This document shows positions 31,213 through 49,160 of a DNA stretch of 64,000 nt, piece by piece. The notes under the pieces were generated by a model, which was given only the letters and a program-made list of their open reading frames with translations, made no database searches and was not told the DNA's origin. Position numbers and translations under genes: made by a program. The DNA is taken from the NCBI RefSeq assembly GCF_007625155.1, contig NZ_VMNK01000005.1, positions 62,001 through 126,000 of the forward strand, given 5' to 3'. This DNA is from Denitromonas halophila (GTDB taxonomy: Bacteria > Pseudomonadota > Gammaproteobacteria > Burkholderiales > Rhodocyclaceae). How positions within the stretch are numbered: position 1 is the stretch's first letter; each line of letters begins with the position of its first letter.

Positions 31213-34200
31213 TCACGTTGCCAGCTCAACGCGCTCACGACTGCCGTCGGAGAACACGAGCATCGCCCTGGCCGCGCACGCCGGGAACATCGCCGATACC
31301 GCGCGGCAGTAATCCTGCATTTGCTGTCGATACTTCGCCATCAGCTGCGGCTCCGGGTGCCCGCTCTTGTAGTCAATGACCCAAGCATCACCGCCGCGCA
31401 GCACCAGCCGGTCGATCCGGCCGAGACGCCCCGCGTCGTCGATGATCTCTACTTCGTTATAGGCCTGATCGAACTGCGCGGGGTCGAAAAAGCACTGCAG
31501 ATCCGGCGCCTTGAGAATCGCCTCGGCGGCGCTGCGCACGGCCTCATCGACCGCCTCCGGCAAGTTCGCACCAGGGGTGGTGGCCGCCTCAATCAGCGCA
31601 TGCATCGCCGTGCCAAAATCCATCGCCTGACTGGCCTCAGGCACGGGAACCCGCTCACCCACCGGTGTCACCGCCGGCGCGATCGGGATCTCAACGGCGC
31701 CCACCGGCGTCTCCACCACCGGCGCCTGAATGCGCGCAACGCTGCCGTAAACCTCACCAGCGTCCAGATCGTCGAGCGCCCGACGCAAGCGACCGTAGTA
31801 GGTCTGCGACGCGTCGCCCCGTGCTTCGCTGCCGCTGGCGACAAAAATCTGCTCGGCGCGGGTGATCGCGACATACAGCAGATTCAGGGTTTCACGCTCG
31901 CGGGCCGCCGCTTCGGATTCAAATATTGCCGCCCTCGCCCGCCCGGCCAACGCCGTGGTGGCGTGCAACGAGAAGTGCGTCGGCCGCGGTGCCCCGGCCG
32001 GCCAGTCGATCAGCGGCTGATAACTGTCGGGCCGCACATGTGTATTGTTGGCATCGATCAGCCACACCACTGGCGCTTCAAGCCCCTTGGCACCGTGGAT
32101 GGTCATGATGCGCACCCGCCCCTGCGAGGCACCATCGATCAGCGCGCCCTCATCGGGCGCCTCGTCATCGCCGGCGCGACCGAGGCGCTGCAGTTCATCC
32201 ACAAAGCGCGGCAGGCTCGGGTAACGCCCGCCATCCACACTCAGTGCAAGCGCCAGAAAGGCCTCGAGGTTGGCGGCCACGCCCGCCCACATCGGCGGCG
32301 GTACGCGGCGGCGATAGGCGGCCATCACGTCGGCCTGATGGTAGATCCGGTCAAGCAGATCATGCACCGGCAAGTGCGCCGCCAAAGCCATCCAGTCCGA
32401 CAGCAGCTCGACCACCGGCGCCAGCACGGCCGCGTGCGGCCCTGCGCTGGCCGCCACGGCACGCAGCCGCGCCCACCAATCGCCGTCCGGCTCGGCCGCC
32501 AGCGCCAGCAAGGCCGCGTCGCTGACATCGAACCAGGGGGCGCGCAGACAATGCGCCAGCGCCAGATCGTCCGACGGCGTGGTCAGGAAGCGCAGCAGTG
32601 CGGTCAGATCAGCCGCCTCCAGCGTGGACAGCAACTGGCCACGGCTGACGCTCAGATACGGCACGCCCGACTCGCGCAGTGCCCGCTCGTACTCGGGCAG
32701 AATGCCGCGCGTGCGGGTCAGGATCAGTACATCGCCCCACTGCATGGGGCGCGCGCCAGCGCTGCCGTCGATGGCGCGATCGCCCACCCAGTCAAACAAG
32801 GTCGACACCATCACCTGCGCTTCCTGGCGACGGGCAAGGTTCTCGCGCACGCGCCGAGCCACCCTCAGCGGGTCGCGCAGGCTGCCGTCATCAATCTCAT
32901 CGGCCAGCCCGGGAGCGCTCACCAGCGCGGGCAGGCACACCATCCCTTCGCGCCCGGTGCGCCGCGCCGCCTGCTCGGCAAAGCCCACAAACGCGGGCTC
33001 TTTGACGAACAATGCATTGACCACCTCCACCACCGCCGGCGCATTTCGCCAGGTGTGGTTGTTGGGCAGACGGACCGCGTCGAAGCCGGCCGCCAGCCAC
33101 TCGGCCGCGTGGTTGAAAATGCGGTAATCGGCACGGCGAAAACGGTAGATGGACTGCTTCGGGTCGCCGACCAGAAAAATCGACGGCCGATACGTATCCG
33201 CCTCATAGGCTGCCAGCCAGGCCAGCAAAATGCGCCACTGCACCGGGTTGGTGTCCTGGAACTCGTCGAGCAGCAGGTGCCGGTAGCGCGCGTCGAGTCG
33301 CGCTTGCAGATACGGCGCGCGGTCCACATCGTCGAGCAGACGATCGACCTCGATCTCCAGATCGGCGTAGTCCATCACCCTGCGCTGTCGCTTGAAGGCT
33401 TCAAACTCGGTCAGCAGCGCGGTGCCGGCGGTCAGCGCCGCGACGTTGAACGCCAGCACGCGCAACTCCAACCGGGCGGCAACACAATCAAGCACGACCG
33501 TGGCGAGCGATTCATGCAGACCCAGCAGATCCATCTCGCCCGCCTCGCCCAGCCGCCCCGCCTGTGCCTTGGACGCCTTGCGGGCGCGCACCGTCCCTTT
33601 CTCGGTCAGAAAAACCGGCACCAGCGCCTCGAAGCGCGCCGCGTCGTCCACGATTGCGAGCGCATCGATCAAGGCGTTGGCCACTTTCTGATCAGACGCC
33701 GTGTTCTTGCCAAGGTGCGCGGCATAGCGCTGGAGCCGCGCCACCAGATCCGGCGCGGCAAAGAACATCGCCAGCGCCTCGGCGTCGGACGACACGTCTG
33801 CCGCGGCGTGCATGTCGGCCAACACGGATTCAAGCGGCGCGCCGTTGGCAAACACTTGCCATTCGCCCCGCCGCGACACAAAGGCGTCGAGCAGGCTTCG
33901 GGTGTTGTTGCTGCCGAACAGCATGTAGAGCTGACCAAGCGACATGGCCGCCGGGCCGTCCGGGGCCTCGGCGCAGCGCCGCGCGAACAGGGCCCAGGCC
34001 TCGTCCATCAGCGGGCCTTCGGCCTCGGCCAGGGTAAAGCCCGCCAAGCCGGCGTTGAAACTGGCACCCGACAGGATGCGACCGAACCAGCCGTGAAAAG
34101 TGGTAATGGTGATTGCCGGGCTGGCCTGCTCGACCGTTTCGATCAGCCCGCGCGCCCGCGGCAACACGGCGAGTGCCTCGGCAGCATCGAGCCCCCGCGC

Positions 34201-34452
34201 TTCGAGGAAGGCGCAGGCCGCCGCATCATCCAGCCGCGCCAGTTCGCGCAGCCACAAGCGCAGCCGCGCCTCGATCTCGCGCGCCGCCTTGCGGGTGTAG
34301 GTAATGGCGAGGATGTCGCCCGGGCGCGCGCCGGTGAGCAGAATGCGCAAGATGCGCGACACCAGCAGCCAGGTCTTGCCGCTGCCGGCACAGGCTTCGA
34401 CAACCACGCTGCGCGCCGGGTCGAGCGCCTGACGAACGAAGGGCTCAGTCAT
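31213..34452 (-). CDS. addA: AddA-like UvrD-family helicase-nuclease
   Basis: The 1079-residue protein processes double-strand DNA ends for recombination. The N-terminus has Walker A VVEACAGSGKTWLL (about 16-29); later come TYTRKAAREIEARL (motif Ia), LLLDEFQDTNPVQW (Walker B), FLVGDPKQSIYRFRRAD (III), IMTIHGAKGLEAPVVWL and LLYVAITRAEQIFVASG (VI). The C-terminus carries a PD-(D/E)XK nuclease core (GRIDRLVLRGG then WVIDYKSG). It overlaps addB by 8 bases. AddA and RecB share this layout; the adjacent AddB-like gene decides for AddA. Confidence 0.92.
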   Translation of the reverse strand: MTEPFVRQALDPARSVVVEACAGSGKTWLLVSRILRILLTGARPGDILAITYTRKAAREIEARLRLWLRELARLDDAAACAFLEARGLDAAEALAVLPRARGLIETVEQASPAITITTFHGWFGRILSGASFNAGLAGFTLAEAEGPLMDEAWALFARRCAEAPDGPAAMSLGQLYMLFGSNNTRSLLDAFVSRRGEWQVFANGAPLESVLADMHAAADVSSDAEALAMFFAAPDLVARLQRYAAHLGKNTASDQKVANALIDALAIVDDAARFEALVPVFLTEKGTVRARKASKAQAGRLGEAGEMDLLGLHESLATVVLDCVAARLELRVLAFNVAALTAGTALLTEFEAFKRQRRVMDYADLEIEVDRLLDDVDRAPYLQARLDARYRHLLLDEFQDTNPVQWRILLAWLAAYEADTYRPSIFLVGDPKQSIYRFRRADYRIFNHAAEWLAAGFDAVRLPNNHTWRNAPAVVEVVNALFVKEPAFVGFAEQAARRTGREGMVCLPALVSAPGLADEIDDGSLRDPLRVARRVRENLARRQEAQVMVSTLFDWVGDRAIDGSAGARPMQWGDVLILTRTRGILPEYERALRESGVPYLSVSRGQLLSTLEAADLTALLRFLTTPSDDLALAHCLRAPWFDVSDAALLALAAEPDGDWWARLRAVAASAGPHAAVLAPVVELLSDWMALAAHLPVHDLLDRIYHQADVMAAYRRRVPPPMWAGVAANLEAFLALALSVDGGRYPSLPRFVDELQRLGRAGDDEAPDEGALIDGASQGRVRIMTIHGAKGLEAPVVWLIDANNTHVRPDSYQPLIDWPAGAPRPTHFSLHATTALAGRARAAIFESEAAARERETLNLLYVAITRAEQIFVASGSEARGDASQTYYGRLRRALDDLDAGEVYGSVARIQAPVVETPVGAVEIPIAPAVTPVGERVPVPEASQAMDFGTAMHALIEAATTPGANLPEAVDEAVRSAAEAILKAPDLQCFFDPAQFDQAYNEVEIIDDAGRLGRIDRLVLRGGDAWVIDYKSGHPEPQLMAKYRQQMQDYCRAVSAMFPACAARAMLVFSDGSRERVELAT

Positions 34453-37117
34453 CGTGATAGTCCTTGCGGCACAGGCCACGCACGCTGCAGTAGTCGCAAA
34501 CGCTGCCGACGCCATTGGCCGTCATCGCCGCGCCCTCGCCCATGCGTTCAAACAGATCGGTGAGCCGCGCCACATGGGCTGCCGCGGCCGCGGCCGGGTC
34601 GTCAAGCGCCCAGGTGTCAACGCGATCGCCATCAAGCGCCACATAGCCAGCCTGTGCGACGGCTTCGTCCATCAAGGCGGCGTAAATTGCCAACTGCCCG
34701 TCCTCCGGGTCTTTCACCGCCCGACGTAGCGAGGCGGTGTCGCGGGCCTTGTAGTCGAGCACCGCCAGCGCGCCATCTGCCCCGCGGTCGATCCGGTCAA
34801 GCCGCCCCTTGAGCGTCAATGTGTCGCCATCGGCCAATAGGAGCGCGCGGCGCAGACTGCGTTCGGATTCGGCGTAGCGCCAACCCGATTGCTCGCGGCT
34901 GCGCTGCCAGGCGAGGTAGTCACCCATGCGTTTTCGCCAGCGCAGCAGCCAGGCGGTTTCAAGGAAGTTGGCCTTCACCCGCTCGCCGAACACGGCCTGG
35001 GTCTCGGCCTCCAGTGCGGCGAGCAAAGTGTCGTCGTCCACGTCGGAAATCACCGGGAAGCGCGTGTGAAAGCGCTCGAGCACCGAGTGCACAAACTGGC
35101 CGTAGTCGCGCTTCTCCATGGCTTCGCTGACCTCGCCCGCCTCGTCCAGCCCGAGCACGTTGCGCGCGAAATACTGATACGGGCAGCTCACCAGCGAGGC
35201 ATAACCGTAGGCGGTGATGGACGCCGGGCGTTGCGCGCGCGGCACGACGGGCCCCGGCACCGCTTGGCCCTGGTGTGTCGCGTGGACCGGCGGCATGGGC
35301 GGCGCGGGTTGAATCAGCGGCCGGCCAAAACGCATCGCGTGCGCCAGATCGAGAATCTCCAGCTCGGCGGCCAGCGGCCCCGGGTCGCCATCGCGCAACT
35401 GCTGCCACGAAAACACCACCCGCCCACAGCCGGCGATCAACATCGTCAGGTCGTCGCGCAGGCGTTGCAGGCCGTCGGCACGGCCGGGCAGGCCGAGGTC
35501 CTGACGGACGCCGTCGTGCACAAAAATGGCGCGGCGATCTTCTGCCGCCAGTTGAACGGCGTCGGCGCCGACCACTATCGCCACATCGAAATGCCGCAGG
35601 CGGCAAGCCGGCAAGTGGGTCATCACCACCGGGCTGCGGATGCTGCGATCGCGGAACAAGGCCGCGTCCAGCTCGCTATCGAGCCAGTCGCGCCACTCTT
35701 CGAAACTCAGCTCACAGCCTTCGTCGTGCAAGGCCTCGACATGGTCGACGAAACTCTCCAGCAGGGTCTGACCGGCGGCGTCCGCCAATAAAGCATCGGT
35801 AGCGTCGAGCGCTGTCAGCAAGGCGCGCAGGCGCTTCAGCCACACTTGCGGCGCCGCCGGTTGCATGGAAAAGCCGCGGCAGGCGTCGCTCAAAATGGAG
35901 ATCAGCGCGAGCGCGTCAGGCTGCGCACTGAGTTTGGCGGCAATCGGCGCCAGGCCGGTGACCACGTGTTCGTCGAGGATCACCCGTTCGATCGCCAGCA
36001 CGGCGCGCTGCCGTTGTTCGGCGGGCATGGCCGAGAACACGAAAGGCGATTTGCACAGATCGAGCACATCGCGCCAATACGCCGAGCGAGCCAGCACTTC
36101 GAGCGCGACATCGACCAGCGCGGCGGCGCGCGTGGTGGAGAGTTTCCAGCCGGATTCATCCTCAACCAGAATGCCGTCGCGTTCGAGCAGCGCACGCGCA
36201 CGTCGTGCCGCCATGCGGTCTACCGCCACCAGCGCAATCGATTCGGCGCCCTCTGCCAATGCCTTGCGCACATGATGCGCAACGGTGTGCGCCTCATGCT
36301 CCAGCGCATCGACGCCAATGATCTGCACCCGCGCATCCAGCGCACCTTCCTCTGTCACCGCAGCCACCCGTGTCTGCAAGGGCAACGTCCCGGTCGACGG
36401 CCAGGCGGCGTCGAGCATGCTTAGCAGCGGCGTGGCCGCCACGCTGCGATCCGCCTGACACAGCACGACCGCGGCCCGTTCGGCATGGCTTTGGAGCCAG
36501 GCATGGAGGGGGGCCGACAAGGCCCCCTCGGCGATCACCAGCAAGGGCGTGGGTGAGGTGGCCGTCCATTGCGCCGCACCGAGCAAACGCGCCGCCCGGC
36601 GCGATGGGGCACCCTGGGTTTCGGCATACCAGAGCTGGTGCACTACGGCCGCTTCAAAGCGCAGCACCTCGGTATTGCGGGCACCGTAGGCCGCAGCAAG
36701 CTGCGCCGCCAGCGCATCCTCACTGGCGGCCAGACCGGCGCCCTGTTCCGTCAGCTCATCAAAGAGCGCGATGAATTCTTCGCACAGCGCCCACAAATTG
36801 CCCTGCTCAAACCAGCCGCGCGCGCGCAGTTGCTGATACAGCGCGAACTGACGGCGGGTGTCCGACAGCGGCGAAAACGCGGCCGCCCAAGGCGCCAGAT
36901 GCACTTGCAGGGTTTCGACCGGCGACAACAGCAGGCTGCGGCCCGCTGCGCGACGCAGCGCCTGCTTGAAGGCCGGCGCCATCATCAGATTGGGAACGAC
37001 CACCCGCCAGCCAGTCAGATCCGGCCCCGGCACACGGTCAATCAGGGATCGGGCGCAACGGTCAATGAAATCCGGCCCCGGCGCAAAACGATAATGAGTG
37101 AGCCCGGAACCGGTCAT
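34445..37117 (-). CDS. addB: AddB-like PD-(D/E)XK nuclease with Fe-S cluster motif
   Basis: The 890-residue partner of the helicase. The last 270 residues hold a nuclease domain (LTLKGRLDRIDRG, then LAVLDYKARD) framed by four cysteines: one in SLVSCPYQYFARNVLGL and three in CDYCSVRGLC, the AddB iron-sulfur arrangement. The N-terminal region is helicase-like but I see no intact Walker A, where FAPGPDFIDRCA stands, as in the alphaproteobacterial AddB type. Translation is coupled to addA. The ferredoxin gene lies 9 bases upstream. Confidence 0.87.
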   Translation of the reverse strand: MTGSGLTHYRFAPGPDFIDRCARSLIDRVPGPDLTGWRVVVPNLMMAPAFKQALRRAAGRSLLLSPVETLQVHLAPWAAAFSPLSDTRRQFALYQQLRARGWFEQGNLWALCEEFIALFDELTEQGAGLAASEDALAAQLAAAYGARNTEVLRFEAAVVHQLWYAETQGAPSRRAARLLGAAQWTATSPTPLLVIAEGALSAPLHAWLQSHAERAAVVLCQADRSVAATPLLSMLDAAWPSTGTLPLQTRVAAVTEEGALDARVQIIGVDALEHEAHTVAHHVRKALAEGAESIALVAVDRMAARRARALLERDGILVEDESGWKLSTTRAAALVDVALEVLARSAYWRDVLDLCKSPFVFSAMPAEQRQRAVLAIERVILDEHVVTGLAPIAAKLSAQPDALALISILSDACRGFSMQPAAPQVWLKRLRALLTALDATDALLADAAGQTLLESFVDHVEALHDEGCELSFEEWRDWLDSELDAALFRDRSIRSPVVMTHLPACRLRHFDVAIVVGADAVQLAAEDRRAIFVHDGVRQDLGLPGRADGLQRLRDDLTMLIAGCGRVVFSWQQLRDGDPGPLAAELEILDLAHAMRFGRPLIQPAPPMPPVHATHQGQAVPGPVVPRAQRPASITAYGYASLVSCPYQYFARNVLGLDEAGEVSEAMEKRDYGQFVHSVLERFHTRFPVISDVDDDTLLAALEAETQAVFGERVKANFLETAWLLRWRKRMGDYLAWQRSREQSGWRYAESERSLRRALLLADGDTLTLKGRLDRIDRGADGALAVLDYKARDTASLRRAVKDPEDGQLAIYAALMDEAVAQAGYVALDGDRVDTWALDDPAAAAAAHVARLTDLFERMGEGAAMTANGVGSVCDYCSVRGLCRKDYHDD

Positions 37118-40519: not shown

Positions 40520-41749
40520 ATGTCACTTCGCAATCACACCGACACCCCAGGCAATGATGAGTTTCTTCATGCCGGCACCCGCCCCTATCGCCTGGCGAAT
40601 CTGGCCATGTTTCTGGGCGGCTTTGCATGTTTTGCAATGCTCTATGGCACTCAGCCGCTACTGCCCTTGCTGTCGCAAGTTTTCAATACCTCGGCGACCG
40701 AGGTCAGCCTGTCGGTGTCGGTCAGCACCGGGGCGCTGGCCCTCGCGCTGATCCCGGCCAGTCTCCTCTCGGACCGCTTTGGCCGCGGCACCATGATGAC
40801 GTTCTCGCTGGTTCTGGCCGCCGTGCTGTCGCTGCTCTGCCCCTGGGTCAGCACCTTCAATGAGCTGCTCGTGCTGCGCGCGCTGCTGGGTGTCGCACTG
40901 GCGGGCCTGCCCGCCGCCGCCATGGCCTACCTGGGTGAAGAAGTGGCGCCGAACGCTCAGGGCCGCGCGATGGGGCTCTACATCGCCGGCAACGCCTTTG
41001 GCGGGATGAGTGGCCGCTTTCTGACCGCCTGGGTCACAGACCACTTCGACTGGCAGACCGGCTTGCTGGTGCTCGGCGTCCTCGGCGCCATCGCCGCGCT
41101 GGCCTTCTGGTTTGGCCTGCCCGCCTCCCGCCATTTCCAGCGCCGCTCCATTTCTCCCGCCAAAGTGCTGGCGGACGCCAAGAACCTGATGCACGACGCC
41201 GGCCTGCCCTGGCTGTTTCTGAGCGCCTTTTTGTTGATGGGCTGCTTCGTCGGGCTTTACAACTTCGTCACCTTCCGCCTCGTCGCACCGCCCTTCGAAC
41301 TCGGCCAGACCGCCATTGGCGGCATCTTTTTGCTTTACCTGGTTGGCACCTGGAGTTCGGCCTGGGTCGGACAACTGGTGGACCGCATCGGCCGCCGCCA
41401 GGTGTTGTGGATGATGGCGTCCCTGATGCTACTCGGTGTGCTCGTCACGCTGCCCACAAACCTGGCCACCGTCATCATCGGCATCGCGATCTTCACTTTC
41501 GGTTTTTTTGGCGCCCACACCACCACCAGCGGCTGGGTCAGCCGGCGCGCCGGGCCCAGCCGAGCACTCGCCGCGGCGGTCTATCTTTCCAGCTACTACC
41601 TCGGCAGCAGCCTGCTTGGCACCGCGGTGGGTTTTGCCTGGGACGCCGGTCTGTGGATCGGCGTCGTCATCAGCCTGAGCCTGCTGTTGATCGCAATGCT
41701 CGCCATCGCGTTCCACCTGTCGCAGCTTCCGAGATCCGCTGCGGCATAG
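40520..41749 (+). CDS. MFS transporter, YnfM/arabinose-efflux-like
   Basis: A 409-residue 12-helix transporter. It shows the MFS motif A-type loop SLLSDRFGRGTMM between helices 2 and 3 and the matching VGQLVDRIGRRQVLW in the second half, near-identical in layout to YnfM-type drug/metabolite exporters. The ORF starts at ATG 40520 with no strong ribosome site. Substrate unknown; regulation by the divergent LysR gene is likely. Confidence 0.87.
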   Translation: MSLRNHTDTPGNDEFLHAGTRPYRLANLAMFLGGFACFAMLYGTQPLLPLLSQVFNTSATEVSLSVSVSTGALALALIPASLLSDRFGRGTMMTFSLVLAAVLSLLCPWVSTFNELLVLRALLGVALAGLPAAAMAYLGEEVAPNAQGRAMGLYIAGNAFGGMSGRFLTAWVTDHFDWQTGLLVLGVLGAIAALAFWFGLPASRHFQRRSISPAKVLADAKNLMHDAGLPWLFLSAFLLMGCFVGLYNFVTFRLVAPPFELGQTAIGGIFLLYLVGTWSSAWVGQLVDRIGRRQVLWMMASLMLLGVLVTLPTNLATVIIGIAIFTFGFFGAHTTTSGWVSRRAGPSRALAAAVYLSSYYLGSSLLGTAVGFAWDAGLWIGVVISLSLLLIAMLAIAFHLSQLPRSAAA

Positions 41750-41969
41750 GGCACGGCGACCCATCCGCCGACCGCAATTATTGCGCGACAGCAACACCCG
41801 TCGCCACACAAGCTCGCCCCGCCGGCCATACCCGATCAGGGCGACGCGGCACCGGTGGTGTACGCGTCGCACCACACCGCAATGCACCAGACCGATGCCG
41901 CCGAAGAAATCGCCGAAATCAGTCACGGCCCAAACGCGCTGCCGGTGGCCAAGGCATCACACGGCCTCC

Positions 41970-42372
41970 ATGAAGATCGCGGCAAGCCCCCCCCTGCCCG
42001 TCGACTAAGCCTACGCCCAGCGCATGGGTCGCAAGGAATCCGAAGCGGCCAAACAAGCATTGCCGATCGAACTGCTCAAGGGTTTGAAGACCGCGACGCG
42101 GCCGGCAAGGGCGGCACGATCAAGCGCTTCATGGAGCATCTGAACCCGCGCGGCGCGCGCTTTGTGGCACTGGAAAAGCCGATCGAAATCGAGCGCCCCC
42201 GTGGTACTTCCAGCGCCACATCGAACGCCAGCCCACCGCCGGCGAAATGGTGTTCTTCGATCGCTCCTGGTACAGCCGGACCGACGTTGAGCACGTGACG
42301 GGTTTTTGCACGACGGAGGAATATCTGGAATTCATGCGGCAGACGCCGCAGATGGAATGCATGCTGGTGTGT
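41970..42372 (+). pseudogene. Decayed polyphosphate kinase 2 (ppk2) remnant
   Basis: PPK2 phosphorylates nucleotides from polyphosphate. Three pieces are visible: an N-terminal piece [12 protein letters not shown], a stop, then [24 protein letters not shown]; in another frame [20 protein letters not shown] with the PPK2 Walker A; and in a third [37 protein letters not shown] and EEYLEFMRQTPQMECMLV. The first junction also lacks about 15 residues usual in the family, and the C-terminal half (lid and DRS-proximal catalytic region after MLV) is absent. One stop, at least two frameshifts and truncation make it non-functional. No gene is evident at 41750-41969 or 42373-42650. Confidence 0.88.
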
Positions 42373-42536
42373 GGATGCAATAGCCGAAGGGCAATGCACC
42401 GAATGCTGGTCTCCCACAAAGCCCCTGCACGCGACCACGAGACAAACTGGCGTCGTCAGGGGCTGTCTCCAGAATGCACTGCGTCGCGCTGGGCCGGTGG
42501 CGCATCGCACTGAGCGCATCAGCGCCAAGGCCCACA

Positions 42537-42565
42537 ATTACATGGGCGATATCCCTACCTATACT
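42537..42565 (+). promoter_or_regulatory. Candidate promoter for the lipoprotein/hypothetical pair
   Basis: ATTACA and TATACT are separated by 17 bases, about 90 bases before the lipoprotein start. Four and five of six consensus positions match. It lies in otherwise empty sequence after the ppk2 remnant. Confidence 0.4.
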
Positions 42566-42653
42566 GTAATAAACAGTCGACCCATTCTGCGCCAACCGCT
42601 GCCTCGGCGCCGCTTGCACATGCTTGGCCCGTCTCATTTCGGAGGTAAAGAAG

Positions 42654-43136
42654 ATGCGTCATTTGGTCGCAGCACGAACCATCGCGTCGTCCATCGCCGT
42701 CGCCTTCACCCTGGTCAGCACAACAGGCTGTGAAACGACCAACAAGCGTGATACGGGCACCATCATCGGCAGTGTTCTGGGCGGCATCCTCGGCAATCAA
42801 GTCGACGACGGCGGCGCCGGCGGCACGATCATCGGCGCCTTGGTCGGCGCTGCAGTCGGCCGCATGATCGGTCAATACATGGATGAGGCCGACAAAAAAC
42901 GCTTCGCCGAGACCATTAACGAAGCACCCACTGGGCAAACCGTGCGTTGGCACAACGATGACAGCAATCGCGACTTTGCGGTCACACCAACGTCCGACGT
43001 CTACGCCAAAGGCGAACAGCAGTGCCGGCGTTTTGACCAGGTCGTTTTTGTCGACGGCAAACGCGAGGTGATGGAGGGTGTGGCCTGCAAGTCTCCGGGT
43101 AGCGATGCGCTCGCCGTCGACGGTCAGCAGGTATAA
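42654..43136 (+). CDS. Glycine-zipper lipoprotein, 17-kDa surface-antigen-like
   Basis: A 160-residue outer-membrane-type lipoprotein with lipobox STTGC near residue 24. The stretch TIIGSVLGGILGNQVDDGGAGGTIIGALVGAAVGRMIGQYMDEADKK is split over a 2TM glycine zipper typical of the Rickettsia 17-kDa antigen superfamily; the C-terminal part (TVRWHNDDSNRDFAVTP, CRRF) is the matching surface-antigen domain. ATG 42654 has GGAGG eight bases upstream, so I prefer it over the longer frame from 42624. It is followed 11 bases later by an unrecognised exported protein, probably one operon. Confidence 0.85.
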   Translation: MRHLVAARTIASSIAVAFTLVSTTGCETTNKRDTGTIIGSVLGGILGNQVDDGGAGGTIIGALVGAAVGRMIGQYMDEADKKRFAETINEAPTGQTVRWHNDDSNRDFAVTPTSDVYAKGEQQCRRFDQVVFVDGKREVMEGVACKSPGSDALAVDGQQV

Positions 43137-43147
43137 GGAGGCCCGTC

Positions 43148-44155
43148 ATGATGAGGCGACAATGGCAGCGCGGCCTTTGCGTCTTTCTTGGCTTCGTGCT
43201 GTGCGCGATCTCGCCGACATCGGCTTGGGCGCAGTCGCCGAACCCATACTCGCCACCCAATACACCTCCAGGCACTTCAGCACCGACACGCGTACCCTAC
43301 CCTACCCCGCCGAGCAATTATGATAACGGCGACAAAGGCGGCGACGGCGGCAGCAACTGGGGCATCCCCGCGCTCATTGTCGGCGCGGTGGCGCTGTTTG
43401 CCATGAACCGTCACCTCAAGGCCGAGACGACCGAACAACGCAATGACGACGAAGGCATGCAGCAACTGCTGCAGACCGGACCGCAAGTCCCCACCCAATT
43501 CAATACCAGCGCCTTCGGCATCCGCGCGCTGGTGCGCAGCGACTGGCCGATCGTGGTCGATTATGCGCAGCATAAACCGGGGCGTGTGCTGCTCCGCATC
43601 AGCGTGCCCGGTGCCGAAATCGTCACCTATCGGCTCGACCAGTTCGGCCTCGGGCGTCATCTGCTGCGCTTCGACCTGCCCCCTTTCCTGGGCGATAGCG
43701 TCAGACCTGCCGTGTTCGCCATCACCGCCGCCGACGCACAAACCGGCACCGAAACCATCGACGGATTCACCGTATACGGCATTGGCTGCGGCCCACGCGC
43801 CGTCGGCTCCATCGCCGTCGACCAGCTCGAATTCAACCCCGGCGAAGTGCGCGTACAAAACGGCGACACCGCCAGCTTCGCCTTCCGCTCACGCTCCGAT
43901 TTTGACAACTCCGCAATCGAATACATGCGCATCACGCAAAGCCCGGACGGCGCACGCAAACGCTATGTCAATGGCCAGCGGATCGGCAGCGTACAGCGCA
44001 ACAGTCGTGTGGAGAGCTCCCCGGCGCAACGCTGGAACGGTCAGGACGAACAAGCCCGCGTCTCACGGGGCCGCCACCAGTTGCAGGTGCGCGTCTGGGA
44101 CGACGGCGGTGACTGGATCGGCGCGTGGTCTGATTCGCTGGTTCAGGTGCGATAA
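43148..44155 (+). CDS. Exported protein of unknown function with one membrane helix
   Basis: Not recognised. The 335-residue product has a signal peptide (MMRRQWQRGLCVFLGFVLCA, cleaved near AWAQS), a Pro/Gly/Asn-rich stretch to about residue 72, a short hydrophobic segment NWGIPALIVGAVALFAM, and a soluble C-terminal domain of about 220 residues with beta-rich character (PGRVLLRISVPGAEIVTYRL). It follows the glycine-zipper lipoprotein by 11 bases, with AAGGAGG near its start, and is convergent with the TIR protein gene. A role in envelope structure is a guess from the neighbour. Confidence 0.8.
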   Translation: MMRRQWQRGLCVFLGFVLCAISPTSAWAQSPNPYSPPNTPPGTSAPTRVPYPTPPSNYDNGDKGGDGGSNWGIPALIVGAVALFAMNRHLKAETTEQRNDDEGMQQLLQTGPQVPTQFNTSAFGIRALVRSDWPIVVDYAQHKPGRVLLRISVPGAEIVTYRLDQFGLGRHLLRFDLPPFLGDSVRPAVFAITAADAQTGTETIDGFTVYGIGCGPRAVGSIAVDQLEFNPGEVRVQNGDTASFAFRSRSDFDNSAIEYMRITQSPDGARKRYVNGQRIGSVQRNSRVESSPAQRWNGQDEQARVSRGRHQLQVRVWDDGGDWIGAWSDSLVQVR

Positions 44156-44192
44156 GCACGCAGGCTGAAAAACGCATCGACTCCGGCACCGA

Positions 44193-47100
44193 CTATTTCG
44201 CGCAAACCGCACGATCAGGCACCGCGTCCACCAGTGCGCACCACGCCTCACGCGTCATCACCGACATTGCGCCCTGCGCGTCCATCTGCGTTGCACTCAT
44301 TGCGGCCAACCACTGTTGCGCCGCCACGCCTGCGGTGTCGGGTACGGGCCAACGCCATTGACGCGCGCGATTGCCGTCGGAAGTCAGCAAGCCGCCATCG
44401 ACGCGGGTGGATTCTGGATAGAGCACGTCGGAACGCAGTCGCGCGCTGAGCGGCTGGCCGGCGATAGCGTCCCATAGTTGTACGCTGGTATTGCCCCACA
44501 GCACGATGCGGCCATCGGCCAACAGCGCGCCGCTGCTGACACCTTCGTTAAGGGTGAGCGGTGGCGAGAGCAGACCGTCGGCGCCAAGACGACGCGCTAG
44601 CGGTCCGGCAGCCACCAGCGTGGCGTCATCGCGCTGATCGAGCAATTCATAGCCGTGCAGACCAAGCGCGTCGAGGCGCGCCTTGAGGGCGGTATCCGGC
44701 ACTGTCGTCTTGGCCTGAGCCTTGCTCGATGCGCTGCTCGAAACTGAGACCGGCGCGGTCAACTCGGCGGCCGGGTGACGCCGCCACACCCGCAGGTCGG
44801 CGTCGTTGGACCAGGTCACGATGCCCTCGCCGTCGTCGAAAAACGCGGCGCCGGCAATGCGTTCGCGGTGTCGCAGCGGAAGGCTGAGCGGCGTCATCGT
44901 GTTGGTGTCCCACAGGCGCGCGCCGGCCGTGGCACTCCAGGCGAGCACGCGTGTGCCATCCGGGGCGATCGCGGTCGACACCGTCGCCTCGTTCTTGTCG
45001 TGACGGCCTCGCGCCGCGGCAGCGCCTTCGGCAAGGTCCCACAGGTTGATGTTGCCACCGCCTCCGCTGGTAATGATGTGCGCCCCCTGTGGCGTGACCA
45101 GCACGTGCGAGATGCTGTCGTCGCTGTCGCGTGCGAGCGGCTGATCGAAACGTGGCTGGCCGGTCGCGGCGTTCCATAGACGCAAACGCCCGCGCGCCGC
45201 GTTCCACGAAACAATGACTTCACCACCCGGCACGATACGGGCACCGTCAACCGTTTCCGGCGACGCCCACGGCGGCACTTGCGCCCCGTCCGGCGAGAAA
45301 TCGTGGCGCATCAATGTGGCGTCGCACCAGCTCAGCACACTGCCCGCGTCGGCAGCGATGTCCACGCCGCGCACGGCGCAAGCCATTTGCCAGGTCGATG
45401 ACACCTCGGCCTCGCCGATGCGCCATTGCCAGAACTGGCCGTCCTTGCTCCACGCCAACACGCCTTCGCGACCAAGGAAACGCGCGCCGGCAATCGACGC
45501 CGTAAGCGCGAGGCGGTGCACCACGTCGCCTTCCGGCAGCGACCATATCCGCACACCGCCCTCATGCCAGCCGAGCAGGCGCCGCCCATCGTCGTCGAGC
45601 GCAATACCGGCGATAGCGTCCGATGCCAACGCGCGCGCCGCTTGCCCGGGGCTCCACAACCACACGCCACCGGCCGCGTCACGCGAGACAACATGGCGTT
45701 GCGCTGCGATATGCGCCTCCTGCACGGGCGTGGCGTGTGCGGCTTGCACCAGCGCGGCGCCGCTATGCAAATCATGCAGCGTGGCGTTTCCTGCGGACCA
45801 CGACACCAGCAGCGCATCGTCGGCGCGCACGCGCACGCCCTCAGGTGCGGCAGGAAGCGCGATCATACGGTTCAGCGCCACGCCTCCGCTGAGCACGCCC
45901 ACGCCAATGAGCGCACTTTCGCGGGCCTGGGTGAGCGGGCTGAGATCCGCGACGCGCGCGAAATAATGGGCGGCCTTGAGCGCGTCGCCGGTGGCGTCAC
46001 GCGCCGACACGGCGCCGCTCCAGTAGCTGTTGATCAACTGAGTATGGGTCTCCAGACGCTGTTGCCACAGTTTGACGCCCAGCCAGCTCGCCGCCACAAA
46101 GCCGATCGCGATGCCCGCCTCGAGCGCGCGCCAGCGTCGGCGCGCTCGGCGCGCCGCCTGGGTGCTGGCGGCAATGAAGGCGCGCAGCGTGTCGTCGACT
46201 TCACTCTCGCGCTCGTTCAGCCAGCGGTGTGCTTCGGCCAGCGGACCGCCACGCAAGAGCAGCCCCTGATCTTTCGGCGCCGCCTGCCAGGCGTCGGCCT
46301 CGGGACGCAGATGCTGGCGCCACAGCAGGAACGCGCGGTCTTCGTCGAGCCAGCGCTTGAGCCGGTCCCAGGCACGGAACAGCGCCTCGTGCGCAACTTC
46401 CAGGGTGCGCGCGCCCTCGCTGCCCGCGCCTGGATCCTCCTGCCCCGACACCAGCAGGCGTGCCTTGACGAAGGCTTCCATGAGCGGATGAATCTCGGCG
46501 GGGATTTCCTGCCAGCGCATCGAGCGCCGGGTGTACTGCCCCTCCGGGTCGACCCGCACCATGTGCCGGAAGGCGCGGCGCAACTCGGAAATCTGCGGTC
46601 GCGTGGGTTTGAGCGCGGCGAGCACGGCGTCGGCCTCCTGCCGGATCGCGCCTTCGAGCCCGCCGATGCGCTCGGTGTATTCGTCGAGCGTGATCTTGCC
46701 GTCGGCGCCAAAGTCGCGCCACAGGCGGTTGAGCGTGAACGCGAGCAAGGGCAGCGCGTCGGCCGTGCCGGTGTCCTGCACCATGGTTTCGACCAGCCCG
46801 GGCTCGAGCTCGATGCCGGCAACCTGCGCCGGTTTGCAGATGATCTCGGCAAAGTGGCGTGGCGTCATCGGGCCGAGTGACATTTCACGAAACGGCATCT
46901 GCCCCCAAGCGGCGTGCGATTGCAGGGCGGACAGGTAATCCGCGCGCAGCGTGGCCAGGCAATACAGATCCCCGCCCTCGCCGACCAGCGCGGTGCGCAA
47001 CAGATCGACAAAGCGCGCCGCCGCCGCGGCGTCGCTGATGGTGACGAGCTCTTCGAGTTGGTCAACGACGAGCAGCACCGCGCGCCGCTCGGCGCCCGAA

Positions 47101-47888
47101 GTCGATGCGGCCGCCACCTCCGCCGCCGCAACGGCGAGCGCCCGCTCGCTGGCATCGCCGATCAACCGCGCGCGCGGGGCATCGGGCAAGGCGCGCGCCA
47201 GTTCGTCGACCGGTTGCTGGCGCGGTCGCATCGGCGCCAGCACATGCCAGTCGGGCATGCGCGACAGTTTCGGGATTACCCCGGCGCGCACCAGCGAGGA
47301 TTTTCCGCTGCCCGACGTACCGACCAGCACCAGTAGCCGGTCGCCGCCATACCGGCGCATCTGCGCCAACGTATCGAGACAGCACCGCTGGTCGTCATCG
47401 CGGCCGAAATACACCGCCGCATCGGCCACCTGAAACGGCGTCAGGCCAGGATACGGTGGACGATGCACGTCCCAGTCAAAGCTGTCGGTCGGGTCCAGGC
47501 CGGCGCTGCGCATACCGCGCCACAGACGTGCGTAGCCCGCCTCCGCGTCGGGGCGCAGATCGGTGCTCTGGGTATCGAGCAGCACGGAGCGCAACTCGCA
47601 TGCGTCGATGATCAGCGGAAAAAGTTGTTTGCCGAGCGCGCGGGCATGAGTGATTTCGGCAAAGCACCAGTCGGAGGCCATCGAGTGTGCGCTGCACAGC
47701 ACCACCACGCCGCTGCATGCGCGCAACTGCGCGTAGATTTCGCGCTCCCAGTGGCGACCGGCGGGAATACCGTCAGCCGGGTCGAAGTCGAGGAATAGCG
47801 ACTGGTAGCCTTGCGCACGCAGCCGCTTGGCCAGATCGTCGGCCGCGGTGTTGTCACGACTGCTGTGGCTGATGAAGATCCCTGACAC
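44193..47888 (-). CDS. TIR-STAND ATPase-WD40 protein (candidate immune sensor)
   Basis: A 1231-residue signalling protein. In order: TIR domain about 2-135 (GIFISHSSRD at the start, candidate catalytic Glu78 in SDWCFAEI); nSTAND1-type linker PYPGLTPF with YFGRDD near 147-165; Walker A VGTSGSGKSSLV at 189-200; Walker B-like LLVVDQLEELV near 271-281; a helical winged-helix region; one membrane helix near 585-605 (GIAIGFVAASWLGVKLW); and about eight weak WD40 blades (VWLWS, VRIWS, LRLWN, INLWD, ARLWD, LRVWR, VQLWD). Known bacterial TIR domains cleave NAD+ or make signal nucleotides on infection. I prefer the GTG at 47888, which has GGAG five bases upstream, over ATG 48014. Confidence 0.88.
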   Translation of the reverse strand: MSGIFISHSSRDNTAADDLAKRLRAQGYQSLFLDFDPADGIPAGRHWEREIYAQLRACSGVVVLCSAHSMASDWCFAEITHARALGKQLFPLIIDACELRSVLLDTQSTDLRPDAEAGYARLWRGMRSAGLDPTDSFDWDVHRPPYPGLTPFQVADAAVYFGRDDDQRCCLDTLAQMRRYGGDRLLVLVGTSGSGKSSLVRAGVIPKLSRMPDWHVLAPMRPRQQPVDELARALPDAPRARLIGDASERALAVAAAEVAAASTSGAERRAVLLVVDQLEELVTISDAAAAARFVDLLRTALVGEGGDLYCLATLRADYLSALQSHAAWGQMPFREMSLGPMTPRHFAEIICKPAQVAGIELEPGLVETMVQDTGTADALPLLAFTLNRLWRDFGADGKITLDEYTERIGGLEGAIRQEADAVLAALKPTRPQISELRRAFRHMVRVDPEGQYTRRSMRWQEIPAEIHPLMEAFVKARLLVSGQEDPGAGSEGARTLEVAHEALFRAWDRLKRWLDEDRAFLLWRQHLRPEADAWQAAPKDQGLLLRGGPLAEAHRWLNERESEVDDTLRAFIAASTQAARRARRRWRALEAGIAIGFVAASWLGVKLWQQRLETHTQLINSYWSGAVSARDATGDALKAAHYFARVADLSPLTQARESALIGVGVLSGGVALNRMIALPAAPEGVRVRADDALLVSWSAGNATLHDLHSGAALVQAAHATPVQEAHIAAQRHVVSRDAAGGVWLWSPGQAARALASDAIAGIALDDDGRRLLGWHEGGVRIWSLPEGDVVHRLALTASIAGARFLGREGVLAWSKDGQFWQWRIGEAEVSSTWQMACAVRGVDIAADAGSVLSWCDATLMRHDFSPDGAQVPPWASPETVDGARIVPGGEVIVSWNAARGRLRLWNAATGQPRFDQPLARDSDDSISHVLVTPQGAHIITSGGGGNINLWDLAEGAAAARGRHDKNEATVSTAIAPDGTRVLAWSATAGARLWDTNTMTPLSLPLRHRERIAGAAFFDDGEGIVTWSNDADLRVWRRHPAAELTAPVSVSSSASSKAQAKTTVPDTALKARLDALGLHGYELLDQRDDATLVAAGPLARRLGADGLLSPPLTLNEGVSSGALLADGRIVLWGNTSVQLWDAIAGQPLSARLRSDVLYPESTRVDGGLLTSDGNRARQWRWPVPDTAGVAAQQWLAAMSATQMDAQGAMSVMTREAWCALVDAVPDRAVCAK

Positions 47889-48087
47889 AGGCGCTCCCGC
47901 ACGGGTGTTCTCGCTCAGGGGCCAGCATGCACTGCCCGGCACGCATTGAAAAGCCCGCCGCGACGCGAGCAGCCGCTCAAGGAATGACCCGGAGGCGGCG
48001 CTGGCTTGTCGCACAGCAATGTTTCGGCTGCTCCAACAAAGGCATTGAAGTCGCGCGCTACGGCCGTCAGTCCATCCGCCGCTCGGC

Positions 48088-48205
48088 CGGCTTCGCGCCG
48101 GCGTGGAAGACCGCGCCGGACACGACGACCTGGCTCAGGTTCCGGCACCTGCTCGAGCAGCACGCACTCACCCGCACGATGTTCGGGACGATCAAGACCC
48201 CTCAG
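48088..48205 (+). mobile_element. IS5-type transposase N-terminal remnant
   Basis: The plus-strand frame reads TAPDTTTWLRFRHLLEQHAL then TRTMFGTIK, matching the DUF772 segment of IS5-family transposases (PDxTTxxxFRHLLExH). No start, DDE domain or inverted repeats are visible, so it is a scrap. The surrounding 47889-48191 holds no other gene; the end of the LysR gene on the other strand slightly overlaps this fragment. Confidence 0.6.
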
Positions 48206-49160
48206 GCGGCCTCGCGAAGTGCGGCGAACCGTCGCCGGCATTTCCCGCGTCATGGCAGGCGCACAAGATCTCCAGAAACCGGCGCGCGAGCCGCGACGGT
48301 GCCGGATTGCGCGGCACGAACGCATGCCAGTCGCAATGGTAGTGAAACACCGACGCACCGATACAACACAACGCCCCATCCGCCACAAAACGCTGCGCGT
48401 AATGCGCGGGTAAAAATCCGACGTAACCGCCCGACAATATCAGCGCCACCGTCGCCTCCTGGTCAAACGCGCGCGCCGTCGGCTGGAGCCCGAGCCGCCA
48501 GAAGGTTTCCATATTGGGTGAGTGATAACCCAGCCCGACCAGCCGGGACGCCCGAATGTCGGCATCATCCGGCGCGTGCCCCCCGGCCACCAGCGGATGC
48601 GAAGTGGCGCAATAGAGCTGCATCGGCTCACCGAACAGCCACACTGCGTCGAAGCTGTCGCTCGCGCGATGCATCGGCTGGATGCCGAGTTGAAAGCGCC
48701 CGTCGAGCAAACCGGGCTCGATCTCGCCGCTGTGCGCTACATGCAGATTGATGCGCACCGACGGCGCGACCGCATCAAACGCCGCAATGGCCTGGGGCAG
48801 ACGGCAACCCGGATTCGTCACAAACTTGTCGAACACCGCCAGGTTCAGCTCGCCACGCAAGCCCTCGTGCAACTCACCAATCTCGGTGCGGAACGCGTCG
48901 ATTTGCGCCAGCAGACGCCGCGCGGCCGCCAGCACCGTCGCGCCCTCCTCGGTCAGCGCAAAGCCGGCCCGACCGCGCTCACACAGGCGCACACCCAGCC
49001 GCGACTCCAGCGCCTTGAGATGACGGCTGATCACCGAGCGGCTGATATTGAGCCGCAGCTCGGCCGCCGCCAGGCCACCGGATTCGGCGATGGCGATAAA
49101 CACCCGCAACAGGCGCAGATCGGCTTCGGCCAGATTGTTCAACAGTGCGCGCGGCTTCAT
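48192..49160 (-). CDS. LysR-family regulator divergent from the aminotransferase
   Basis: A 322-residue regulator with winged helix ADLRLLRVFIAIAESGGLAAAELRLNISRS split over residues 11-40 and an effector domain after about 95. Alternative ATG 49190 exists; ATG 49160 (MKPRALLNNLAEAD) fits the family better. It is divergent from the omega-aminotransferase/mmsA operon and is the likely activator of beta-alanine or related amine catabolism; inducer unknown. The last codons run into the IS5 scrap, so the extreme C-terminus may have been replaced. Confidence 0.9.
   Translation of the reverse strand: MKPRALLNNLAEADLRLLRVFIAIAESGGLAAAELRLNISRSVISRHLKALESRLGVRLCERGRAGFALTEEGATVLAAARRLLAQIDAFRTEIGELHEGLRGELNLAVFDKFVTNPGCRLPQAIAAFDAVAPSVRINLHVAHSGEIEPGLLDGRFQLGIQPMHRASDSFDAVWLFGEPMQLYCATSHPLVAGGHAPDDADIRASRLVGLGYHSPNMETFWRLGLQPTARAFDQEATVALILSGGYVGFLPAHYAQRFVADGALCCIGASVFHYHCDWHAFVPRNPAPSRLARRFLEILCACHDAGNAGDGSPHFARPPEGS

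Follow-up and report, generated by a model that had tools for sequence, protein, structure and literature searches.

The stretch analysed here, called the window throughout, comprises 64,000 nucleotides of the Denitromonas halophila contig NZ_VMNK01000005.1, and on its minus strand lies a gene for a large protein that joins a TIR domain, an nSTAND1 ATPase, a membrane-like helix and a WD40 region. Two small genes on the opposite strand, one for an unnamed protein family (hyp335) and one for a glycine-zipper lipoprotein, adjoin this gene, and all three sit in a segment that is absent from the same site of four congeners. The features under consideration are the following.

44193..47888, minus strand: TIR-nSTAND1-membrane helix-WD40 protein, 1231 residues
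47523..47879, minus strand: TIR domain, residues 4-122 (TIR_2 by Pfam)
46266..47456, minus strand: nSTAND1 ATPase, residues 145-541, with Walker A Lys196 and Asp276 (Pfam)
46068..46124, minus strand: hydrophobic helix, residues 589-607, directly after RRARRRWR
44469..45839, minus strand: WD40 propeller region, residues ~684-1140 (propeller profiles and predicted strands)
43148..44155, plus strand: hyp335, unnamed family, tail to tail with the TIR gene across a 37 bp gap
42624..43136, plus strand: glycine-zipper lipoprotein (Gly-zipper_Omp / Rick_17kDa_Anti)
41731..48248, no strand assigned: segment absent from the same site, between major facilitator superfamily (MFS) and lysR genes, of four congeners (blastn, approximate edges)
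47927..48262, plus strand: transposase fragment (DUF772; E 6.9e-6, 26.4 bits against a cut-off of 23.1)

Domains of the large protein

The large gene starts with GTG at 47888, with GGGAG upstream, and both the coordinates and the length given in an earlier reading made from the sequence alone were right. That reading had also named a TIR domain with a plausible catalytic glutamate, and had suggested that the fold be looked for by profile search; Pfam's TIR_2 is indeed found at the N-terminus (E 4.5e-20, 72.8 bits). The motif SDWCFAE occupies residues 72-78 and its last residue, Glu78 (codon at 47655-47657), aligns with the WxxxE glutamate of the CRISPR-associated TIR protein Cat1 (E 0.0097) and of SARM1 (E 0.32), which we take to be the catalytic residue in SARM1. 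Sequence similarity to these two proteins is otherwise low, and their activators differ. Since a conserved glutamate in the WxxxE position is one mark of a catalytic, NADase-type TIR, the domain is a candidate for that class. The window protein and seven orthologues all have Glu78, the Walker A Lys196 and Asp276 unchanged.

The ATPase assignment made by the sequence-only reading holds as well. The nSTAND1 profile (PF20703) matches with E 6.4e-97 and 326 bits against a curated cut-off of 27.1, covering profile positions 1-378 of 379, and the Walker A motif GTSGSGKSS (residues 190-198) and the stretch VLLVVDQLEEL (residues 271-281) are readily located, which together place the protein in the nSTAND1 family. 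Given the E-values for nSTAND1 and TIR_2, and full-length relatives at 58-96% identity within the same bacterial family, these domain matches are judged to be far beyond chance.

The C-terminal part is more degenerate. Pfam propeller profiles match mainly residues 881-1038 (best E 5.4e-12) and stay under their own family cut-offs, with PF00400 absent from the listed Pfam matches, while WD40 structures are matched by sequence (2ymu, E 8.4e-24), so that the region most probably is a WD40 propeller. A structure model of residues 1-1200, built from eight sequences, places 33 strands in residues 684-1036, or about eight blades; these strands, taken with the sub-threshold profiles, make the earlier description of about eight degenerate blades a fair one. 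The model has a mean predicted local distance difference test score (pLDDT) of 53 and a predicted template modelling score (pTM) of 0.36. Its block means reach 65-92 across residues ~690-960 and are lower beyond, with low values in the TIR part, and it is usable for residues ~690-960 only. When the whole model was searched with Foldseek, the best match in the PDB was the Apaf-1 apoptosome (5juy_B, E 1.5e-18), which, at TM-scores of 0.15-0.16 and the pTM given above, we read as supporting a likeness of layout only. The N-terminal domain of Apaf-1 is a CARD. The two proteins would thus have in common a STAND ATPase followed by a C-terminal WD40 part, and the window protein differs in carrying a TIR domain at the place of the CARD and in its membrane helix. 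STAND proteins whose C-terminal sensor is a WD40 part assemble once a ligand is bound, Apaf-1 doing so with cytochrome c (PMC7159879).

A helix in the middle of the protein had been proposed from the sequence and is borne out, being retained among relatives, although its 19-residue Kyte-Doolittle mean of 1.5 is modest and a segment at residues 660-678 scores higher (1.68). Of the 59 nSTAND1-relative rows compared, which include duplicates and cut copies, 39 have a helix whose Kyte-Doolittle mean is 1.3 or higher and whose N side carries three or more Lys/Arg, outnumbering those on the C side. The other 20 fail, five of them being of the same type as the window protein, where a neighbouring segment was picked. 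A stricter, anchored test kept 17 of the 59 rows (39 lacked the anchor and three duplicates were dropped) and detected the helix and the N-side excess in 15 of these 17 distinct relatives; the remaining two, L110 and L132, fail through a shifted window and display the helix in the 59-row analysis. The membrane-like helix is common among nSTAND1 relatives rather than peculiar to the window protein. The positive-inside rule, applied to the N-side excess of Lys/Arg, predicts that TIR and STAND lie in the cytoplasm and the WD40 part outside.

Partner genes and the hyp335 family

The sequence-only reading held that no matching defence partner is adjacent to the large gene, which may work alone. This is not supported, because hyp335 and the lipoprotein gene adjoin the large gene, in convergent layout, in all 13 genomes that carry this type, although neither small protein matches a PADLOC defence model. 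The 13 comprise the genome of the window, eight loci (L004-L010 and L017) and the genomes G525, G529, G1041 and G1179, the last two from other bacterial families; L013, where a contig end leaves only the beginning of a relative, was left out. In G1041 identity to the window counterparts is 40% for the large protein, 40% for hyp335 and 34% for the lipoprotein. In G1179 hyp335 and the lipoprotein are 34 and 42% identical, and the contig, which begins within the WD40 part, shows only this portion of the large protein (25% over 216 residues).

Sixteen window genes were compared with 11 loci of relatives (the lysR2 row being disregarded), eight of which are full-length with flanks, and among these eight the remaining tested flanking genes are common only to L004, from Denitromonas ohlonensis. 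The convergent gene ends overlap in five of 12 loci, and pairwise identities of the three module proteins correlate at 0.93-0.97 (66 pairs from 12 genomes), a figure that would also be expected from shared descent alone. For the lipoprotein, an ATG at 42654 is the more likely start; this start and the lipobox were read by eye.

The hyp335 protein is laid out as a signal-peptide-like start, a Pro-rich stretch, a hydrophobic helix and a beta-rich conserved domain. Searches of Pfam, NCBIfam and PADLOC gave no match to it under the limits set, a profile search of the PDB returned a chance match only (E 0.61), and a fold model from eight sequences (mean pLDDT 40) is unusable beyond an all-beta impression. 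A profile built from 17 members, with 34 invariant columns, finds the family in 19 of 395 genomes of the same bacterial family, nine times beside a TIR-STAND-WD40 protein and ten times beside a second type of TIR protein, which we call helix-x-helix-TIR. All 19 genes thus have a TIR neighbour, one pair being cut by a contig end. The helix-x-helix-TIR proteins have ~500-530 residues, arranged as a helix, ~300 residues, a second helix and a C-terminal TIR_2 (detected with Pfam in the four tested, and by alignment, motif or profile in the others); in G089 a contig end interrupts the gene, and a C-terminal TIR part lies on a different contig. In a sample of 199 genomes, the four with a full-length large protein and the nine with helix-x-helix-TIR (eight full-length, and G089 split) are exactly the 13 that have hyp335. 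Beyond the family hyp335 is rare, although the counts are lower bounds, few candidates having been scored per genome: at least one of 300 genomes of the order (that of the window) and at least two of 274 of the class (that of the window and G1179). The G1041 module was encountered through a TIR-STAND search of the phylum. On these occurrences hyp335 is, as judged by gene neighbourhood, a TIR-associated family, and its conserved position suggests a role in sensing or gating for hyp335, alone or together with the lipoprotein.

Insertion site and mobility

The sequence-only reading had placed the gene in an accessory patch, and comparison with congeners agrees. In G511, G110, G175 and G529 only ~1 kb separates the two genes that flank the module in the window (MFS and aminotransferase), the site being empty, whereas in the genome of the window and in G490 the gap is ~7.5 kb. 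The inserted segment measures ~6.5 kb and has the DUF772 transposase fragment at its right edge. Three of the congeners with an empty site (G110, G175 and G529) carry the module elsewhere, next to what look by eye like pheT and ihfA, and five Thauera-type loci (L006, L008, L054, L079 and L081) have yet another common neighbour, again by eye. The module therefore occupies several chromosomal sites.

Identity of the window's large protein is 73.5% to its counterpart in G495, from another genus, and 65-67% to those in G110, G175 and G529; a LeuB-like protein in the same comparison gives 84% and 95%, respectively. Because the large gene is closer to G495 than to the congeners, the opposite of the LeuB-like protein, separate acquisition of this copy is likely for the large gene. 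The hyp335 protein follows this uneven descent weakly (81% to G495, 72-79% to the three congeners). We read the segment as a putative mobile, membrane-tethered TIR-STAND module. A tblastn search of plasmids returned nothing for hyp335 (limit 1e-5), and the large protein (limit 1e-40) matched a single Rhizobium plasmid, at 47% identity over 18% of the query.

A fragment of PPK2 (polyphosphate kinase 2; 41855-42298, plus strand, E 2e-11) lies between the MFS gene and the module, and a related stretch is also found downstream of the MFS gene in G145.

Proposed function and rival explanations

A fusion of TIR, STAND and WD40 belongs to a known class. PMC10907252 gives TIR as one of the effectors carried at the N-terminus by some STAND proteins, and the nSTAND1 (PF20703) fusions of predicted conflict systems have the same arrangement of nSTAND1 core, N-terminal effector and C-terminal sensor as the window protein; the window module differs in its conserved hyp335 and lipoprotein partners. 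We recognised no description of the three-gene module, or of hyp335 as a partner of two TIR architectures, in the open-licence literature, which is weak evidence of novelty.

In the profile search of defence-system databases that the sequence-only reading had proposed, PADLOC returned 13 matches to the large protein at E up to 1, all confined to the TIR or P-loop parts, and no model, of Avs or of any other PADLOC STAND system, matched across the STAND and sensor parts. The likeness to Thoeris ThsB and ThcB4 consists of the TIR domain, a narrow ThsB_TIR match in Pfam (22.8 bits against a cut-off of 21.2) and weak local PADLOC matches, whereas TIR_2 fits the large protein far better and the NCBIfam ThcB4 model reaches 26.4 bits against a cut-off of 220. 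A ThsA-type partner was not found: no Thoeris model is among the PADLOC matches listed for ten neighbouring window proteins (for one helicase the best 25 of 52), hyp335 or the lipoprotein, and no ThsA-like gene was recognised by eye beside the large gene.

Clustered TIR domains hydrolyse NAD+ (nicotinamide adenine dinucleotide). We tentatively favour a mobile three-gene, membrane-tethered module of immune type, a reading for which the case falls just short of evenly balanced. The large protein would be held in the inner membrane with TIR and STAND facing the cytoplasm and the WD40 propeller outside, where the propeller, in presumed contact with hyp335 and the glycine-zipper lipoprotein, would read an envelope signal such as phage adsorption, injection or another intruder. 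ATP-dependent assembly of the STAND part would then cluster the TIR domains, which would hydrolyse NAD+ and stop the cell. That two small genes for putative envelope proteins travel with the TIR gene points to a multi-gene, possibly anti-phage, system, and it is in this sense that we suppose an anti-phage function.

Several observations weigh against this proposal. The hyp335 profile, which recovered six of six positive controls in the same locus search, found no member near the more distant TIR-nSTAND1 relatives of L011, L012, L055, L056, L057, L058 and L145, nor in the short L018 and L030; among these, L011, L012, L055 and L056 hold TIR-nSTAND1-WD40 relatives, with WD40 C-termini in L011, L055 and L056, so hyp335 belongs to the subtype of the window protein and the layout alone does not require it. 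No convincing PADLOC match was obtained for the ten neighbouring window proteins (for one helicase, among the best 25 of 52 matches); an AddA-like helicase (31213-34515) matches GajB in part, and rho and a LysR-type protein match mad8 and a CARF model, respectively, both weakly. The lipoprotein, 67% identical to that of G495 and 65-73% to those of the three congeners, does not follow the uneven descent of the large gene, and its separate acquisition is unproven. In the hyp335 of the TIR-STAND module, a second hydrophobic helix has a C side richer in Lys/Arg in ten of 11 members, which would place the conserved beta-rich domain in the cytoplasm, a poor fit to a WD40 partner outside; of the nine hyp335 proteins examined that are paired with helix-x-helix-TIR, seven have no comparable second helix and two are too short to measure. 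Finally, six of ten helix-x-helix-TIR loci (L046, L047, L049, L052, L053 and L083, all with hyp335) lie within what is, judged by eye, one and the same conserved RoxA-like / di-heme cytochrome operon, family searches covering the proteins of one locus, a setting that does not look like phage defence.

It is the cytochrome operons that make stress signalling a serious rival. On this explanation hyp335 and its membrane TIR partner would respond to redox state or to damage in the periplasm, and what the TIR domain produces would be a signal or growth brake rather than a means of phage defence, which would also accord with defence models matching only the TIR or P-loop parts. We consider it unlikely, though, given that the TIR-STAND form is patchy and found at several sites, and that, by eye, the loci read for that form showed no such cytochrome operon alongside.

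Less probable again is that hyp335 serves as an immunity or inhibitor protein that restrains a toxic TIR protein, in the manner of a toxin-antitoxin cassette. The pairing of hyp335 with two different TIR architectures and the overlapping tail-to-tail gene ends would suit such an arrangement, but a co-sensor is equally compatible with the pairing, and hyp335 has, by eye, a signal-peptide-like start or a lipobox in members with a readable start, whereas the TIR part should be cytoplasmic. The least probable explanation, that of a lone cytoplasmic Avs-like STAND sensor with two hitchhiking small genes, has in its favour the distant relatives lacking hyp335 in the searched loci and the only moderately hydrophobic helix, but hitchhiking is hard to reconcile with a gene order and orientation kept across families at 34-42% identity of the small proteins, or with the lack of any sampled genome that has hyp335 and no TIR neighbour.

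Returning to the membrane-tethered module, a broader proposal is that hyp335 defines a new modular TIR-receptor system, in which it would be the envelope partner of two membrane TIR architectures and would couple surface events to cytoplasmic loss of NAD+, a coupling like that between outer sensor and inner TIR domain in Toll-like receptors. We regard this as doubtful, if conceivable. Were it so, a conserved unnamed partner of two membrane TIR architectures would be a hitherto undescribed part of TIR signalling in bacteria, and the module would allow a direct test of whether TIR proteins sense at the envelope or inside the cell.

Other TIR or STAND genes were met in passing. A different TIR-nSTAND1 gene in G093 (L058:6515-13823) stands between genes for a patatin-like phospholipase and a TPR-S protein, a defence-like neighbourhood, and in G024 (L055:7619-13643) a TIR-nSTAND1-WD40 gene is near an HD_assoc (phosphohydrolase-associated domain) gene that looks dGTPase-like by eye. 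A Thauera metagenome-assembled genome has a second nSTAND1 fragment (L006:1-2189) adjoining a gene that appears TIR-like by eye, ~6 kb from its module. In the genome of the window itself, two TIR genes (L166:1924-3939 and L167:670-1587) read by eye as TIR, membrane helix and a further domain, the first shortly after an apparent MoxR-type ATPase gene, and on contig C23 a gene resembling by eye a nucleotidyltransferase of the cyclic-oligonucleotide-based antiphage signalling system (CBASS) type (L168:3924-5001) lies near a weak nSTAND1 match.

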